Source: an uncultured Alphaproteobacteria bacterium (lineage in GTDB: Bacteria; Pseudomonadota; Alphaproteobacteria; Puniceispirillales; Marisalimonadaceae). From it: 48,826 bases of DNA. Made by a program: the position numbers and the translations under genes. Under the pieces are notes generated by a model that worked only from the letters and a program-made list of their open reading frames with translations, was not told where the DNA came from and did no database searches. Shown here one piece after another: positions 7,662 through 13,128 of this stretch (position 1 is the first letter of the stretch; every line of letters begins with the position of its first letter). The stretch spans positions 1-48,826 of the forward strand of contig CAKZQZ010000002.1 in NCBI GenBank assembly GCA_937142855.1, written 5' to 3'.

Positions 7662-8453
7662 TCAATCTTTTTGCATAAGTCCAAATAAATAAGAAAGAAA
7701 AAAAAGTATTGCGCTTATAACAACTATTGACGGTCCAGAAGGTGCATCAAGCTCTACTGAAAGAAATATACCTGAAATAACTGAAATAACCCCTACTAAG
7801 GTTGCAATCAACGCCATTTGCCCGGGCGAGTTAGCTAACCTCCTTGAAGTTGCGGCAGGGATAATCAACATAGCAGTTATAAGAAGTAAGCCTATTATTT
7901 GAAGTGATACTGCTACGACTATTGTTAAAACTATGGTTAATAATAAATTAATATAAATAGGATTTATTCCCTCGGCTCTAGCTAAATCTTCATCAATTGT
8001 TACCAAAAGTAAAGAAGACCAATTAATAAGTATAAGAAGAATTGTGATGCCTACCCCAAGATACATTATCCATAAATCACTCGAGCTTACGGTTAATATG
8101 TCTCCAAACAAAAATGCTTCAATATCAATTTTAATTCTATTTAATGAAATTACTATAATACCAATTGATAGAGCAAGATGTGCTAACACCCCTAGAAGAG
8201 TGTCTGTTGATAAAATTTTACTTTGCTGCAACCATAAAAAAAGAATACCAAATAATAAACAGATAATGATGACACCAAAATTAATTCCAGTTCCCAGTAA
8301 TATACCTAGTCCAACACCTAGCAATGAACTATGAGCTATAGATTCACCATAATATGACATTCTTCTCCAGACAACAAAGCAACCAACCAAACCTGAAATT
8401 AGGGCAACTGCAATCCCAGCTAATAAAGCTCTAATTATAAATGGATCAGCTAT
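7662..8453 (-). CDS. znuB: Zinc ABC transporter permease ZnuB, probable AUA start
   Basis: This inner-membrane permease of the ZnuABC high-affinity zinc importer has about seven hydrophobic segments. It carries the family block CFVVWRRMSYYGESIAHSS, DEDLARAEGIN and ITAMLIIPAATSRRLA. The only conventional start in frame is UUG 8390, which would remove most of the first helix. The frame stays open upstream and encodes DPFIIRALLAGIAVALISG, the expected ZnuB N-terminus. The best-placed start is AUA at 8451-8453, overlapping the znuC stop as TAATA and seven bases after GGAG. That gives 263 residues, the normal ZnuB length. No ATG, GTG or other UUG exists between the upstream stop (8475-8477) and 8390. 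Function is sure; the start codon is unusual. Confidence 0.88.
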   Translation of the reverse strand: MADPFIIRALLAGIAVALISGLVGCFVVWRRMSYYGESIAHSSLLGVGLGILLGTGINFGVIIICLLFGILFLWLQQSKILSTDTLLGVLAHLALSIGIIVISLNRIKIDIEAFLFGDILTVSSSDLWIMYLGVGITILLILINWSSLLLVTIDEDLARAEGINPIYINLLLTIVLTIVVAVSLQIIGLLLITAMLIIPAATSRRLANSPGQMALIATLVGVISVISGIFLSVELDAPSGPSIVVISAILFFLSYLFGLMQKD

Positions 8454-9199
8454 TATTCTTCTCCAACTAAATAACTATGATCATGATTATGATCATGGCT
8501 ATGCTGATAAATAGACATCATATTAGCCATATCTTTTCCAAACATGGAAAGAAATTCTGGATCTTTTGCAATTTGTTGGGGCGCACCTGAACAACAAATA
8601 TGTTTATAAAGACATAGAACTTTCTTTGTAGAAACCATTACCAAATGTAAATCATGAGAAATCATTAAAATACTAATATCTCTCTTAGAATAAATTTCTT
8701 GAATAAGTTTATAAAAATTTAATTGCCCAGAAATATCTAAATTCTGCGCAGGTTCATCTAAAATAAGTAAATCAGGGTTATTTAAAAGACTTCTAGCAAG
8801 CAAGACCCTTTGCATTTCTCCACCTGACAAAACTGATAGTTGCTTATTAACTATTTCGCCTAAATTCACTTCGGTAATTACTTTATGAAGAGAGACGTCA
8901 TCATATTTCTTTTTAACCGTTATAAAACCTTTTACTGTCATTGGCATCGTGTTAATGACATTTATACTTTGCGGCATATAACCTATTTTTAATTTCTCTT
9001 TCCTCTCAATCATACCTGAGGTTGGTTTATAAAACCCCATTAAACATTTTAAGAGCATAGTCTTGCCTGCACCATTGGGTCCAATTATGGTAATAAAGTC
9101 TTTTTTATTAATTTGTATATCAATATTCTCTAATATAGATTTCTGATTTTTTAAAACGCTGACGTTTTTAGCAGAAATCAGAGCATTAGTTAATTTCAT
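8453..9199 (-). CDS. znuC: Zinc ABC transporter ATPase ZnuC
   Basis: This 248-residue ATPase of the ZnuABC importer has Walker A GPNGAGKT (40-47), signature LSGGEMQ (124-130), Walker B LLILDEP (144-150) and the switch His in ISHDLHLVM. A short histidine-rich tail (HSHDHNHDH, 233-241) is typical of zinc-transport proteins and may buffer or sense cytoplasmic zinc. Its ATG overlaps the zur stop codon as ATGA (9196-9199). Its own stop overlaps the proposed znuB start. The order zur-znuC-znuB with divergent znuA is the classical proteobacterial zinc locus. Confidence 0.93.
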   Translation of the reverse strand: MKLTNALISAKNVSVLKNQKSILENIDIQINKKDFITIIGPNGAGKTMLLKCLMGFYKPTSGMIERKEKLKIGYMPQSINVINTMPMTVKGFITVKKKYDDVSLHKVITEVNLGEIVNKQLSVLSGGEMQRVLLARSLLNNPDLLILDEPAQNLDISGQLNFYKLIQEIYSKRDISILMISHDLHLVMVSTKKVLCLYKHICCSGAPQQIAKDPEFLSMFGKDMANMMSIYQHSHDHNHDHSYLVGEE

Positions 9200-9660
9200 T
9201 TTTGACTACAATCCAGACAATGTCCTTCAATTTCTAATGTAGTATTACTTATAACAAATTTATTATGTACAGCTGTTTTAGAAATCCTATCTTTTAAACT
9301 ATCATCGCAGCATTCTTGATAAAGATTACATTTTTTACATATTAGAAAATAACATTCTTCATGAGTTTTGGGATGGAAACATCCTACAAAAGAATTTATA
9401 GAATTCAATTTATGCACAAACCCATTTTCAATTAAAAAATCAATAGCTCTATAAACTGTAGGAGGATGAGAAGGCTTGTTGGTTATATTTCTTATTTCAT
9501 CAAGTATTTCGTAGGCTTTTATAGGTTTATTATTTTTTATAATTATTTCAAATACTTGCCTACGAATATCAGTAAACCCTAGGTTATTAGATCTACAAAT
9601 TTCATCAACTCTACTAATTGAAGCATTTAACTCGGTTATGGACTTTTCTTTTTTTATCAT
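9196..9660 (-). CDS. zur: Fur-family zinc uptake regulator Zur
   Basis: This 154-residue Fur-family repressor has an N-terminal winged helix (about 30-90, with TDIRRQVFEII and HPPTVYRAIDFL) and a C-terminal dimerisation and metal domain. The structural zinc site is formed by C108-x2-C111 and C148-x2-C151, and H/E/C residues in HPKTHEEC supply the sensory site. The pattern, together with linkage to znuC, znuB and divergent znuA, makes Zur the clear choice over Fur or PerR. With zinc bound it should repress both divergent transcripts through the dyads at 9696-9722, which would also make it autoregulated. Confidence 0.92.
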   Translation of the reverse strand: MIKKEKSITELNASISRVDEICRSNNLGFTDIRRQVFEIIIKNNKPIKAYEILDEIRNITNKPSHPPTVYRAIDFLIENGFVHKLNSINSFVGCFHPKTHEECYFLICKKCNLYQECCDDSLKDRISKTAVHNKFVISNTTLEIEGHCLDCSQK

Positions 9661-9682: not shown

Positions 9683-9710
9683 TTGACATTGAAACAACAT
9701 AATATATGTT
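9683..9710 (+). promoter_or_regulatory. Probable sigma-70 promoter of znuA
   Basis: TTGACA (9683-9688) and TATGTT (9705-9710) are spaced by 16 bases. The ATG of znuA lies 38 bases beyond the -10 box. The -10 box is one arm of the left Zur-like dyad and abuts the right one, so repressor binding would block polymerase. Confidence 0.6.
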
Positions 9711-9722
9711 ATGTTATAACAT
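9696..9722. promoter_or_regulatory. Candidate double Zur operator
   Basis: Two abutting dyads are seen. The left is AACATA-ATA-TATGTT (9696-9710). The right is the perfect 12-bp palindrome ATGTTATAACAT (9711-9722), flanked by further TG/CA symmetry. ATGTTATAACAT resembles the core of alphaproteobacterial Zur boxes as I know them. They sit exactly between zur and znuA and overlap the promoter elements on both strands. Confidence 0.75.
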
Positions 9723-9747: not shown

Positions 9748-10746
9748 ATGTTAAAACTTTTGACCATTTTTTCTTTCATGATTTGTTTCAGTTTCAATTT
9801 AATTGCTTCTGAAACCAAAGGTGTTGTTACAACTATTCAACCAATAAATTCTTTAGTAAGTGCTGTTATTGGAAATACTGGCAAAACAATTTCATTAATA
9901 CCAGCTGAAGTATCACCCCACGAATATAAATTAAAACCTTCTGATACAAAAAAATTACAAAATGCAAACATCATATTTTTTGTCTCAGATCACCTTGAGT
10001 CAAGTGTAACTAAGGTATTTAAAAACCTTCCTAAAAACATAAAAATAATAAATTTAATGGAAGAGGCTGGAATTAAACATTTAGCAATAAGAGATAGTGA
10101 GGCATGGGAACGTCATGACCACTATCATGGACATGGTGATGACGATGATCACGATGAACATACTAGGAAACATGATGATCACGACCAAGACAAACATTCA
10201 AAAAAACATGATGATCATGATGATCACGAAAAAGAAGATGACGTTCACATTTGGTTAAGTCCAGATAACGCTGTGAAAATTATTAAAAAGATAAATAAAG
10301 AAATGAGTTTATTTTTTCCAGAAAATGCCAAAACATATAATCAAAATGCTAATCAAATGATTAAGAAAATTAATCAATTGAAAGTTGAATTAAAAAAAGA
10401 ACTGTTAGGTATTAAAGATAAACCTTATATAGTATTCCATGATGCATATCAGTATTTTGAAACTAGCTTCAATTTAAATGCTGTTGGCTCTGTTGCCTTA
10501 GAAGGAGATATAGCTTCTTCACCAAAGCAAATATCTTTTATAAAAGATAAAATTGTTAAATTAAAAGCTTCATGTATTTTTCAAGAACCTCAGTTTGATA
10601 GTAGATTAGTACAAATTGTCGTTGAAGGTACTAATGCACAAATAGGTATACTAGACCCTCTTGGTGTAAATATAAAAAGTGGAGAAAATTTTTATTTACA
10701 ATTACTAAAAAACATGGCTAAAAGCCTGAAAGATTGTTTAGGGTAA
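9748..10746 (+). CDS. znuA: Periplasmic zinc-binding protein ZnuA
   Basis: This 332-residue solute-binding protein has a signal peptide (cleavage likely near residue 21, in LIASETKG). The zinc ligands expected in the family are H58 in SPHEY, H167 in DVHIWLS, H231 in FHDAY and D303 in ILDPLG. Between the first two lies a long acidic and histidine-rich loop, about residues 122-165, made of repeated HDDHD-type units; such loops capture periplasmic zinc. It is divergent from zur-znuCB and preceded by the Zur-like dyads. It is followed after nine bases by an extra ABC-type module, an unusual extension of the locus. Confidence 0.93.
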   Translation: MLKLLTIFSFMICFSFNLIASETKGVVTTIQPINSLVSAVIGNTGKTISLIPAEVSPHEYKLKPSDTKKLQNANIIFFVSDHLESSVTKVFKNLPKNIKIINLMEEAGIKHLAIRDSEAWERHDHYHGHGDDDDHDEHTRKHDDHDQDKHSKKHDDHDDHEKEDDVHIWLSPDNAVKIIKKINKEMSLFFPENAKTYNQNANQMIKKINQLKVELKKELLGIKDKPYIVFHDAYQYFETSFNLNAVGSVALEGDIASSPKQISFIKDKIVKLKASCIFQEPQFDSRLVQIVVEGTNAQIGILDPLGVNIKSGENFYLQLLKNMAKSLKDCLG

Positions 10747-10755
10747 TGTTTATAA

Positions 10756-11397
10756 ATGTTTATTTGTGAAGATGTATCATTCGATATTGACGGACAAAAA
10801 TTATTTTCAAATATAAATTTCAATCTTAAACCTCAGAAGGACCTTTTAATAACTGGTCCTTCTGGAATTGGTAAAACAACCTTACTTAGTATTTTATGCG
10901 GTATTCAAAAGCCAACCACTGGTAAAATAACTTATAATAGTATTGACCTTTATAATTTACCTGAAAACAAAATAGATGAATTTAGAGGTAAAAATCTTGG
11001 TGTCGTTTTTCAAAATTTCAATTTAATCAATACATTCACTGTTAAACAAAACTTAGAAATTGCTGTAAGTGCTATCAATACAAGAAAATCAATTCCATTG
11101 TTTAACCTTTTGGATAAAGTTGGACTAGCAAACAAATCGCATATAAAAGTTGCAAATTTAAGCATCGGTGAAAAACAAAGACTTGCGGTGGCGCGTGCAT
11201 TTGTTGGCGATCCCAAATGGGTTTTTTGTGATGAACCAACTTCTTCATTAGACGATAAAAATGCCCATATTATTGCCAATTTAATAAAAGAAGAAAGCTT
11301 ACGTTGTAAAGCTTCACTGGTACTAATAACACATGATAGTCGTATTCAATCTTTAATAAAATTCTCTAAAATTATTAGATTAGGAGAACAGTTATAA
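10756..11397 (+). CDS. LolD/MacB-type ABC ATPase in the zinc operon (ZrgB-like)
   Basis: This 213-residue ATPase has Walker A GPSGIGKT (34-41), signature LSIGEKQR (135-142) and Walker B WVFCDEP (155-161), followed by TSSLDD. The layout is that of LolD/MacB/FtsE-type ATPases, which partner with FtsX-like membrane proteins and drive mechanotransmission instead of classical import. It starts nine bases after znuA. In Vibrio cholerae, as I recall, a Zur-regulated zrg operon pairs such an ATPase with an FtsX-like permease and a DUF3299 protein, the same set as here. A role in zinc acquisition or zinc-starvation physiology is therefore likely, but the mechanism is not established by this sequence. 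Confidence 0.82.
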   Translation: MFICEDVSFDIDGQKLFSNINFNLKPQKDLLITGPSGIGKTTLLSILCGIQKPTTGKITYNSIDLYNLPENKIDEFRGKNLGVVFQNFNLINTFTVKQNLEIAVSAINTRKSIPLFNLLDKVGLANKSHIKVANLSIGEKQRLAVARAFVGDPKWVFCDEPTSSLDDKNAHIIANLIKEESLRCKASLVLITHDSRIQSLIKFSKIIRLGEQL

Positions 11398-12566
11398 ATA
11401 TTTTTTATATATCTATTTTGTATCTAAAATCTAAACCCTTAAACTTTATGCTAAGTGTATTTCTTATGGTTGTAGGAATTACAATTATAACTGTGTCTAT
11501 ACTAGTAAATCAGGTTACCAAAAACACTTTCAGTAAAAATAATCCAGGTTTAGATGCTGTTGTTGGTGCTAAAGGAAGCCCTCTTCAATTGATATTATCT
11601 TCTATTCATCATATTGATATTCCTACAGGGAATATAAGCTACCAAAATGCAAAAAAAATTATTAAACACCCAGCCATTAAAAGTGCAACACCAATATCGT
11701 TGGGTGATAATTTCCAAAATTTTAGAATAGTTGGAACTAACAAAAATTTTTTAAAATTATATAAAGCAAATCTAATATCAGGTACTGCCTGGTCAGAACC
11801 AATGCAAGCTGTAATTGGATATAATGTGTCTAAAATCACAAAATTAAAAATTAACAAGTTTTTTGTTGGCTCACATGGCTTGATTGATACTGGGGATGTT
11901 CATGTAGAGCAACCTTATAAAGTTGTTGGTGTTTTAAAAAAAACTGGAACCATATTAGATAATTTAATTTTAACAAGTTTAGATAGTGTCTGGAACTTAC
12001 ACTCTGATACAAATAAAAATAAATTAGAGATTACTTCATTGTTATTAAAATACAAGAATAAGACTTCATCTTTCTCTTTTCCTCGCTTAATTAACAAAGG
12101 TACAAACATGCAAGCTGCCAGTCCTAGTTTTGAAATTTCAAAACTACTTAAACTTACTGGTAATGCTCATAGAATTGTTGATTACTTCAGTTTACTAATA
12201 ATAATATTATCTTTCTTAGGAATCTTGATCACTTTGTTAAATAATATAAATGAACGGAAATATGACTTAGCAGTTTTAAGAACACTTGGATTTTCAAGAT
12301 GGAAGTTATTTTCTATAATTTTATCAGAAGGAATGATTATTTCTATTTTAGGTAGTACTATTGGTATAATATGTGGATACATAATATATGAAAGTATGTA
12401 CTATTTTTCTATTGTAGGTAGAAGCATAGAATTTGGGGAGTTGAATTTTCTAAATGACTTATTTTTAATTTGGATAATTGTAAACATAATTGCCTTTATA
12501 ACGTGCCTAGTTCCATGCATAAAAGTTTACAAGCAAAATATAAGATCTACTTTATTAAATAGTTAA
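11394..12566 (+). CDS. FtsX/MacB-type permease in the zinc operon, probable AUA start
   Basis: This is a four-helix MacB/FtsX-type permease: one N-terminal helix, an extracytoplasmic domain (about 45-260) and three C-terminal helices separated by NERKYDLAVLRTLGFSR, the family's coupling segment. The in-frame UUG at 11418 would start the protein inside the conserved N-terminus. The frame upstream encodes NIFYISILYLKSKPLN, the expected beginning. AUA at 11394-11396 gives 390 residues, lies six bases after AGGAGA, and overlaps the upstream stop as ATAA, the mirror of a normal ATGA junction. It acts with the preceding ATPase. Function as a transporter or mechanotransmission complex of the Zur regulon is inferred from context. 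Confidence 0.8.
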   Translation: MNIFYISILYLKSKPLNFMLSVFLMVVGITIITVSILVNQVTKNTFSKNNPGLDAVVGAKGSPLQLILSSIHHIDIPTGNISYQNAKKIIKHPAIKSATPISLGDNFQNFRIVGTNKNFLKLYKANLISGTAWSEPMQAVIGYNVSKITKLKINKFFVGSHGLIDTGDVHVEQPYKVVGVLKKTGTILDNLILTSLDSVWNLHSDTNKNKLEITSLLLKYKNKTSSFSFPRLINKGTNMQAASPSFEISKLLKLTGNAHRIVDYFSLLIIILSFLGILITLLNNINERKYDLAVLRTLGFSRWKLFSIILSEGMIISILGSTIGIICGYIIYESMYYFSIVGRSIEFGELNFLNDLFLIWIIVNIIAFITCLVPCIKVYKQNIRSTLLNS

Positions 12567-12579
12567 AATTTATATATTT

Positions 12580-13128
12580 ATGAAGTGGATTTTATTGAAG
12601 GAAAATTTTTTGAATTTGAAGTTTCTATTTATAATTTTTATTACTTTTATTTGTTATAAAGCATTTGGATTTGAAAAATTTAATCTTAATGATATTGACC
12701 CTAATGAAAATATTATTGTCGGAGATATGTTTGAGCCACTGAAAGTTACAGGGGACGCTTTGCCATGGCAATTATTTGGCAAGACAAAGGAAGTGGAAGA
12801 TTGTACTATTGATAAAGATGGTTTTGATTACTGTCTAATCAAACCAATTTATGACGATAAAATTAAAAAATATAATGGGGAAACTGTTACTATAATGGGA
12901 TACATGTTTCCATTAGAAGAATCTGAAAAACAAAGAAAATTTTTAATAGGCCCGTACCCTTTAAGTTGTCCGTTTCACTATCATGTCGGGCCTTCTCAGG
13001 TAATTGAGATAAAATCAAATAATCCAATTAATTTTTCTTTTGATCCAATTACCATCAAGGGCAAACTCAAAATAGAATTTAATGAGGAGACAGGTTCATT
13101 CTTTTACCTTGAAACTATTAAGTCTTAA
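12580..13128 (+). CDS. Exported DUF3299-like protein of the zinc operon
   Basis: This 182-residue protein has an N-terminal membrane or signal segment (about residues 13-31). The rest is extracytoplasmic. It contains VTIMGYMFPLEES followed by FLIGPYPLSCPFHYHVGPSQ, which matches the DUF3299 pattern of a short conserved strand and a Cys/His-containing loop that could bind metal. Two further cysteines (DCTI and DYCL) precede this. It is the last gene of the rightward znuA operon, 13 bases after the FtsX-like gene, and converges on a thiolase-like gene. DUF3299 proteins accompany FtsX-type ABC modules in zinc-regulated operons. The biochemical role is unknown. Confidence 0.68.
   Translation: MKWILLKENFLNLKFLFIIFITFICYKAFGFEKFNLNDIDPNENIIVGDMFEPLKVTGDALPWQLFGKTKEVEDCTIDKDGFDYCLIKPIYDDKIKKYNGETVTIMGYMFPLEESEKQRKFLIGPYPLSCPFHYHVGPSQVIEIKSNNPINFSFDPITIKGKLKIEFNEETGSFFYLETIKS

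Follow-up and report, generated by a model that had tools for sequence, protein, structure and literature searches.

Two membrane proteins of a zinc-uptake cluster in a SAR116-cluster alphaproteobacterium, an FtsX-like ABC permease and ZnuB, are probably translated from AUA codons, at positions 11394 and 8453 of the window (the whole stretch of DNA that was analyzed, 48,826 nucleotides). These codons are best read as conserved, inefficient starts of the class found at infC, the gene for initiation factor 3 (IF3), that would limit permease output; we put the probability of this reading at roughly two in three. The cluster, in which zur, znuC, and znuB run leftward and znuA, an ABC ATPase, the permease, and a DUF3299 protein run rightward, comprises the following features.

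7662..8453, minus strand: znuB, read from an AUA start (8453-8451), with a 1-base overlap with the znuC stop (PF00950)
8453..9199, minus strand: znuC, ATG start
8461..8464, minus strand: GGAG Shine-Dalgarno (SD) sequence of znuB, spacer 7
9196..9660, minus strand: zur-like FUR-family regulator (PF01475; NF008646 below cut-off)
9707..9721, plus strand: palindrome TGTTATGTTATAACA, probable Zur site, sole exact match in the window
9748..10746, plus strand: znuA, zinc-binding protein (PF01297; NF007091 below cut-off)
10756..11397, plus strand: ABC ATPase partner of the permease, ATG start (ATG in 25 of 25 loci hit)
11382..11387, plus strand: AGGAGA SD sequence of the permease, within the last ATPase codons (GGAG spacer 7 in 25 of 25 readable loci)
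11394..11396, plus strand: likely AUA start codon of the permease, overlapping the ATPase stop TAA (11395-11397)
11394..12566, plus strand: FtsX-like (MacB_PCD + FtsX) ABC permease, ZrgB-like by operon context (PF02687, PF12704)
11418..11420, plus strand: UUG, alternative start candidate, codon not conserved
12580..13128, plus strand: DUF3299 protein, ZrgE-like by domain (PF11736; excerpt of PMC9817125)

The cluster is predicted to belong to a Zur regulon: the Zur-type palindrome TGTTATGTTATAACA precedes the operon, between znuA and the adjoining zur gene, and its core was found in 12 of the 26 relative loci scanned. As is typical of ZnuA proteins that bind zinc, znuA encodes a long loop rich in His and Asp (positions 10117-10250). 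The permease passes the curated Pfam cut-offs for both MacB_PCD (42.8 bits versus 27) and FtsX (60.2 versus 25.5), and the matches to its sequence are SAR116-cluster or alphaproteobacterial relatives. The palindrome resembles the Vibrio Zur site given in the excerpt of PMC9817125, in which the ATPase zrgC, the permease zrgB, and the DUF3299 gene zrgE of the ZrgABCDE system share one Zur-regulated operon, the same grouping as in the window; the permease is likened to ZrgB by this operon make-up alone. Unlike in Vibrio Zrg, a ZnuA-type binding protein (PF01297) comes first in the window operon, and no separate DUF2796 ZrgA was detected among the window proteins scanned.

Three properties of a conserved non-canonical start come together at position 11394, namely the lack of any upstream canonical start in frame, a suitably spaced SD sequence, and conservation across species. 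Between the in-frame stop TAG at 11376 and the ATA, the permease frame holds five codons (ATT AGG AGA ACA GTT), none of them ATG, GTG, or TTG. The initial annotation, which proposed this start, placed AGGAGA six bases before the AUA and noted an ATAA overlap with the upstream stop; both are present in the sequence (AGGAGA at 11382-11387, ATA at 11394). Among relatives on named contigs (26 loci, of which L017 is cut, leaving 25 readable), ATA occupies the start position in all 25, at a constant distance from GGAG. In the whole-genome set of 27 loci, from which L047 and L056 could not be read by offset, ATA with a GGAG spacer of 7 is likewise found in 25 of 25 readable loci (the genome's own and 24 others); the two sets share organisms, and their counts must not be summed. 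The permeases of the readable relatives show 70 to 95% protein identity. In L056, a distant homologue from a sister-family genome, an ungapped count places ATG at the equivalent position.

The invariance of the AUA codon is, by itself, weak evidence, because the codon is equally fixed at 6 of the 19 other positions of the permease where Ile is invariant. Given that such invariance is only mildly unusual, what carries the case is that AUG is absent, that the SD spacing is fixed, that the neighboring codon varies, and that znuB and fabH show parallels. The codon directly before the ATA is GTT, GCT, GTC, GTA, or ATT. Four of the 25 loci have an ATPase gene that ends one or two codons sooner, yet the permease ATA is unchanged. 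Two nearby codons were rejected as starts, namely GTT 11391, which varies among relatives, and ATT 11400 (codon 3), which is TTT in L014. Taken together, the alignments support AUA 11394 as the likely start codon of the permease. Among the other genes of the cluster, ATG starts were read in relatives for zur in 10 of 11 hits, znuC in 15 of 24, znuA in 9 of 25, and the DUF3299 gene in 16 of 26, counts that are only partly readable, as the remainder aligned poorly or too far inside the gene.

The genome is a draft of 122 contigs, and a sequencing or assembly error, or else a single recent mutation, could in principle have produced the ATA. The initial annotation considered a single systematic read error unlikely, and for the permease, an error is refuted by the recurrence of this codon in all 25 readable relatives, whose contigs are separately named, leaving this explanation a negligible chance. 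A second possibility is that the AUA codons are untranslated and that UUG codons farther downstream serve instead, UUG 11418 for the permease and another for ZnuB. Initiation at UUG is permitted, TTG 11418 is the first canonical in-frame start after the ATA, and the codon at this position is TTG in 21 of 25 readable loci; however, it is TTA in three and CTT in one, no SD sequence precedes it by the motif set used (in agreement with the initial annotation), and initiation there would lose eight N-terminal residues found in relatives. A downstream start for the permease is thus very unlikely, judging from these alignments. For znuB, the first canonical downstream codon lies 63 nucleotides on and also lacks an SD sequence, so that we give the combined UUG reading only a slight chance. 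Finally, the two genes overlap, with the permease in the -1 frame, an arrangement that might allow a frameshift at the end of the ATPase gene to yield an ATPase-permease fusion. Inspection of GGAGAACAGTTATAA revealed no slippery run, though, and the earlier ATPase stop in the four loci described above leaves the permease start unaltered, making a fusion highly improbable.

The second AUA start, that of znuB, is located on the opposite strand, 2.9 kb from the permease start and thus within the 3 kb that the initial annotation indicated; the ATA (8453-8451) overlaps the znuC stop by one base. The aligned codon in 27 genus loci is AUA in 23, AUU in 3, and AUC in 1, and never AUG, whereas all 23 outgroup loci have ATG at the aligned place or within seven codons of it. 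In 18 of the 27 genus loci, no canonical in-frame start occurs upstream within the codons printed. In the other nine, the SD sequence itself creates an in-frame TTG or ATG four codons upstream, which is a possible alternative znuB start in those genomes. In five genomes (G003, G005, G019, G021, and G023; loci L145, L147, L152, L155, and L156), ZnuB is only 74 to 77% identical to that of the window, although four permeases of the same genomes are 89 to 94% identical to the window's; this discrepancy suggests an exchange of the znuB copy in those genomes.

Starts of the same codon class are known at infC itself, which has a non-AUG start subject to autocontrol by IF3 (AUU in Escherichia coli, ATC in Streptomyces, and AUA in Staphylococcus aureus). 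The initial annotation pointed to infC as a place to look, and ATA proved to be at the start in every one of the order's 47 infC loci (L100 plus 46 from relatives). The script picked this codon together with GGAG in 45 of them; in another, the contig ends immediately upstream of the ATA, and the last carries ATT and ATA in tandem. The permease and znuB starts share with infC the codon class and the presence of an SD sequence. Unlike infC, they belong to zinc-cluster membrane proteins rather than a translation factor and overlap an upstream stop, and any IF3 control of them is proposed by analogy.

To gauge how widely such starts are spread, 906 ORFs in 957 kb (41%) of the genome, with the infC locus added on purpose, were surveyed for SD-preceded codons at least 15 nucleotides before the first canonical start. 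This procedure yielded 44 candidates, 9 of which are AUA or AUU; because the remaining 35 are neither, the SD criterion alone is noisy, and the clear cases depend on protein-family fit. Four such cases were found apart from infC: the two window permeases, which are the genes that raised the question, a FabH-like gene starting with AUU (G000:C46:49652-50641, minus strand; L293), and an ArsC-like gene starting with AUA (G000:C29:14935-15306, minus strand; L323). The remaining AUA/AUU candidates include one inside infC and three doubtful ones with TTG or ATG 15 to 18 nucleotides on, namely an ATA of a ribonuclease HII-like gene (C17) and ATT codons on C36 and at 88657 of C29. A TatD-like candidate on C4 was also set aside, a later ATG fitting better.

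The two cases outside the cluster differ in conservation. All 23 fabH loci of the genus have AUU at the aligned codon, preceded directly by ATG in one locus and, at a distance of five codons, by TTG in two; in each of the 7 outgroup loci, an ATG lies near the start. Of the 30 arsC loci, 26 start with ATG or GTG, 2 have AUA, and 2 are unreadable; the arsC AUA is therefore a recent change or a read error, and if genuine, it is an example of an AUA start that arose with no conservation. With four clear cases in 906 ORFs, fabH and arsC lying outside the cluster, the class appears to be rare but recurrent and not confined to zinc genes. The suggestion in the initial annotation that this lineage may accept AUA starts more readily is thus borne out as far as recurrence goes (conserved at fabH, sporadic at arsC) and is tempered by the rarity of these starts.

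A second genome of the genus, G022 (385 ORFs), again yielded the permease, together with three additional candidates that differ in quality (on G022:C5 and G022:C1; L353-L364): AUC/AUU in an SDR-like gene, AUA in a nitrilase-like gene, and a doubtful AUC in a thioredoxin-fold gene. The nitrilase-like gene has ATG in G000, an ATG precedes the likely signal peptide of the thioredoxin-fold protein, and the SDR-like gene had no match in the other genome samples. No AUA, AUU, or AUC candidate far from a canonical start was found in a sister-family genome of similar GC content (G044; 280 kb, 268 ORFs) or in one from another family (G042; 120 kb, 107 ORFs), the latter giving two CTG candidates; by a rough estimate, the difference between the genus and these controls is not significant, and the 268-ORF sample is too small to be decisive.

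These data bear on the main rival of the weak-start reading, relaxed start fidelity: because the genus tolerates AUA, AUU, and AUC, AUG starts would drift nearly neutrally among them, without any role in dosing. The sporadic arsC AUA, the nitrilase-like gene with AUA in G022 and ATG in G000, the absence of far candidates from the sister-family ORFs, and the genus-specific changes in IF3 described below are all consistent with such drift. Conversely, the same genomes keep AUG at the ATPase and AUA at the permease (25 of 25 in each case), znuB shifts among AUA, AUU, and AUC without ever reaching AUG, and starts of this class remain rare. Relaxed fidelity is considered unlikely.

The translation machinery of the genus was also compared with that of its relatives. 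At one site of IF3, all 25 genus sequences have Phe and all 22 outgroup sequences have Tyr; this site aligns to position 107 of 8jsg_A, the best PDB match, which we take to be E. coli IF3. Tyr107 and Lys110 were reportedly required for ribosome binding of IF3 in a 1992 study. Two residues neighboring the Phe site also differ in the genus (Asn at both in most sequences), and two further sites differ as Ile/Val. A common IF3/ribosome control that places the zinc permeases, FabH (the first condensing enzyme of fatty-acid synthesis), and IF3 itself in a small translational regulon of AUA, AUU, and AUC starts, matched by genus-specific IF3 changes such as Tyr to Phe at the site aligned to position 107, may be imagined, but we regard it as quite doubtful.

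The initiator tRNA, the other component named in the initial annotation, was compared as well. The complete genes found in relatives show an A-U pair (29:41 in the numbering used) where three G-C pairs are usual, a stem that is common in alphaproteobacteria; since four sister-family loci share the same A-U pair, the tRNA does not explain the difference of the genus. No complete initiator tRNA gene was recovered from the window's own assembly by tRNA scan, pattern search, or ARAGORN, which gave only 3' halves, in four places (L259-L262). Such 3' halves are multicopy in many genomes of the genus (for example, G022:C1:72483-87322, G003:C2, and G018:C2) and look as if they were attachment sites of mobile elements. 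Reassignment of AUA to Met was rejected, in the one gene examined, as AUA and AUU replace each other in the permease where Ile is invariant.

Under the weak-start reading, the genus would keep third-position near-cognate codons (AUA, AUU, or AUC, the infC class) at the starts of the permease and ZnuB. A good SD sequence and a stop codon overlapping the start would bring the ribosome to the site, where fMet-tRNA would pair imperfectly with AUA and IF3 would reject many of the complexes; imperfect pairing and rejection would thereby hold the permease rate low relative to that of its ATG-started ATPase partner. Initiation with Met, a low yield, sensitivity to IF3, and selection on dosage are what this scheme would entail, the weakness of the start and its IF3 sensitivity being extrapolated from other bacteria. 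That the two starts may serve as a dosing device, as the initial annotation suggested, is in keeping with their conservation. Control by zinc status acting at the start codon is unsupported. Weighing against the scheme are the upstream TTG or ATG in 9 of 27 znuB loci, the unconserved arsC AUA, codon invariance elsewhere in the permease gene, and the noisy SD criterion.

The closest precedents come from S. aureus, where, according to the excerpt of PMC13009471, the AUA starts of ccpN and citZ and the AUU start of cvfC1 give ∼10% of the reporter expression of AUG in poor medium, rising to as much as 30% for ccpN in rich medium; the ccpN and cvfC1 starts are conserved in Staphylococcus, and that of citZ is conserved in one lineage. 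Like those in SAR116, these starts are conserved, have a good SD sequence, and belong to ordinary genes, whereas the genes and the phylum differ, and the staphylococcal starts were measured while the SAR116 ones are deduced from sequence. Another example is the GTC start of sigR in Streptomyces, which, according to PMC5472188, is repressed by IF3 and sets the ratio of operon partners, as is proposed here for the permease; it differs in being GTC rather than AUA, in belonging to a regulator instead of a transporter subunit, and in that the upstream gene carries the weak start. In E. coli, excess IF3 lowers re-initiation, less so when an SD sequence is present (excerpt of PMC2268962).

Conserved AUA and AUU starts are thus a known kind of feature, reported for Staphylococcus (PMC13009471). 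A literature search covering few subscription journals found no report of AUA-type starts in SAR116 or in zinc transporters and none combining "AUA start codon" with initiation factor 3; publications on SAR116 and start codons, judged by title, contained nothing on non-canonical starts, nor did the excerpt of PMC11497404 contain anything bearing on AUA starts.

Collectively, the comparisons suggest that weak starts have been maintained at both membrane proteins of the zinc cluster and speak against a sequencing error. Gene callers limited to ATG, GTG, and TTG would truncate such genes, and both permeases and fabH could be misannotated throughout the genus. If these weak starts are functional, they would amount to a control on the dosage of membrane transport in these marine bacteria and a natural test of the use of IF3 discrimination beyond infC.
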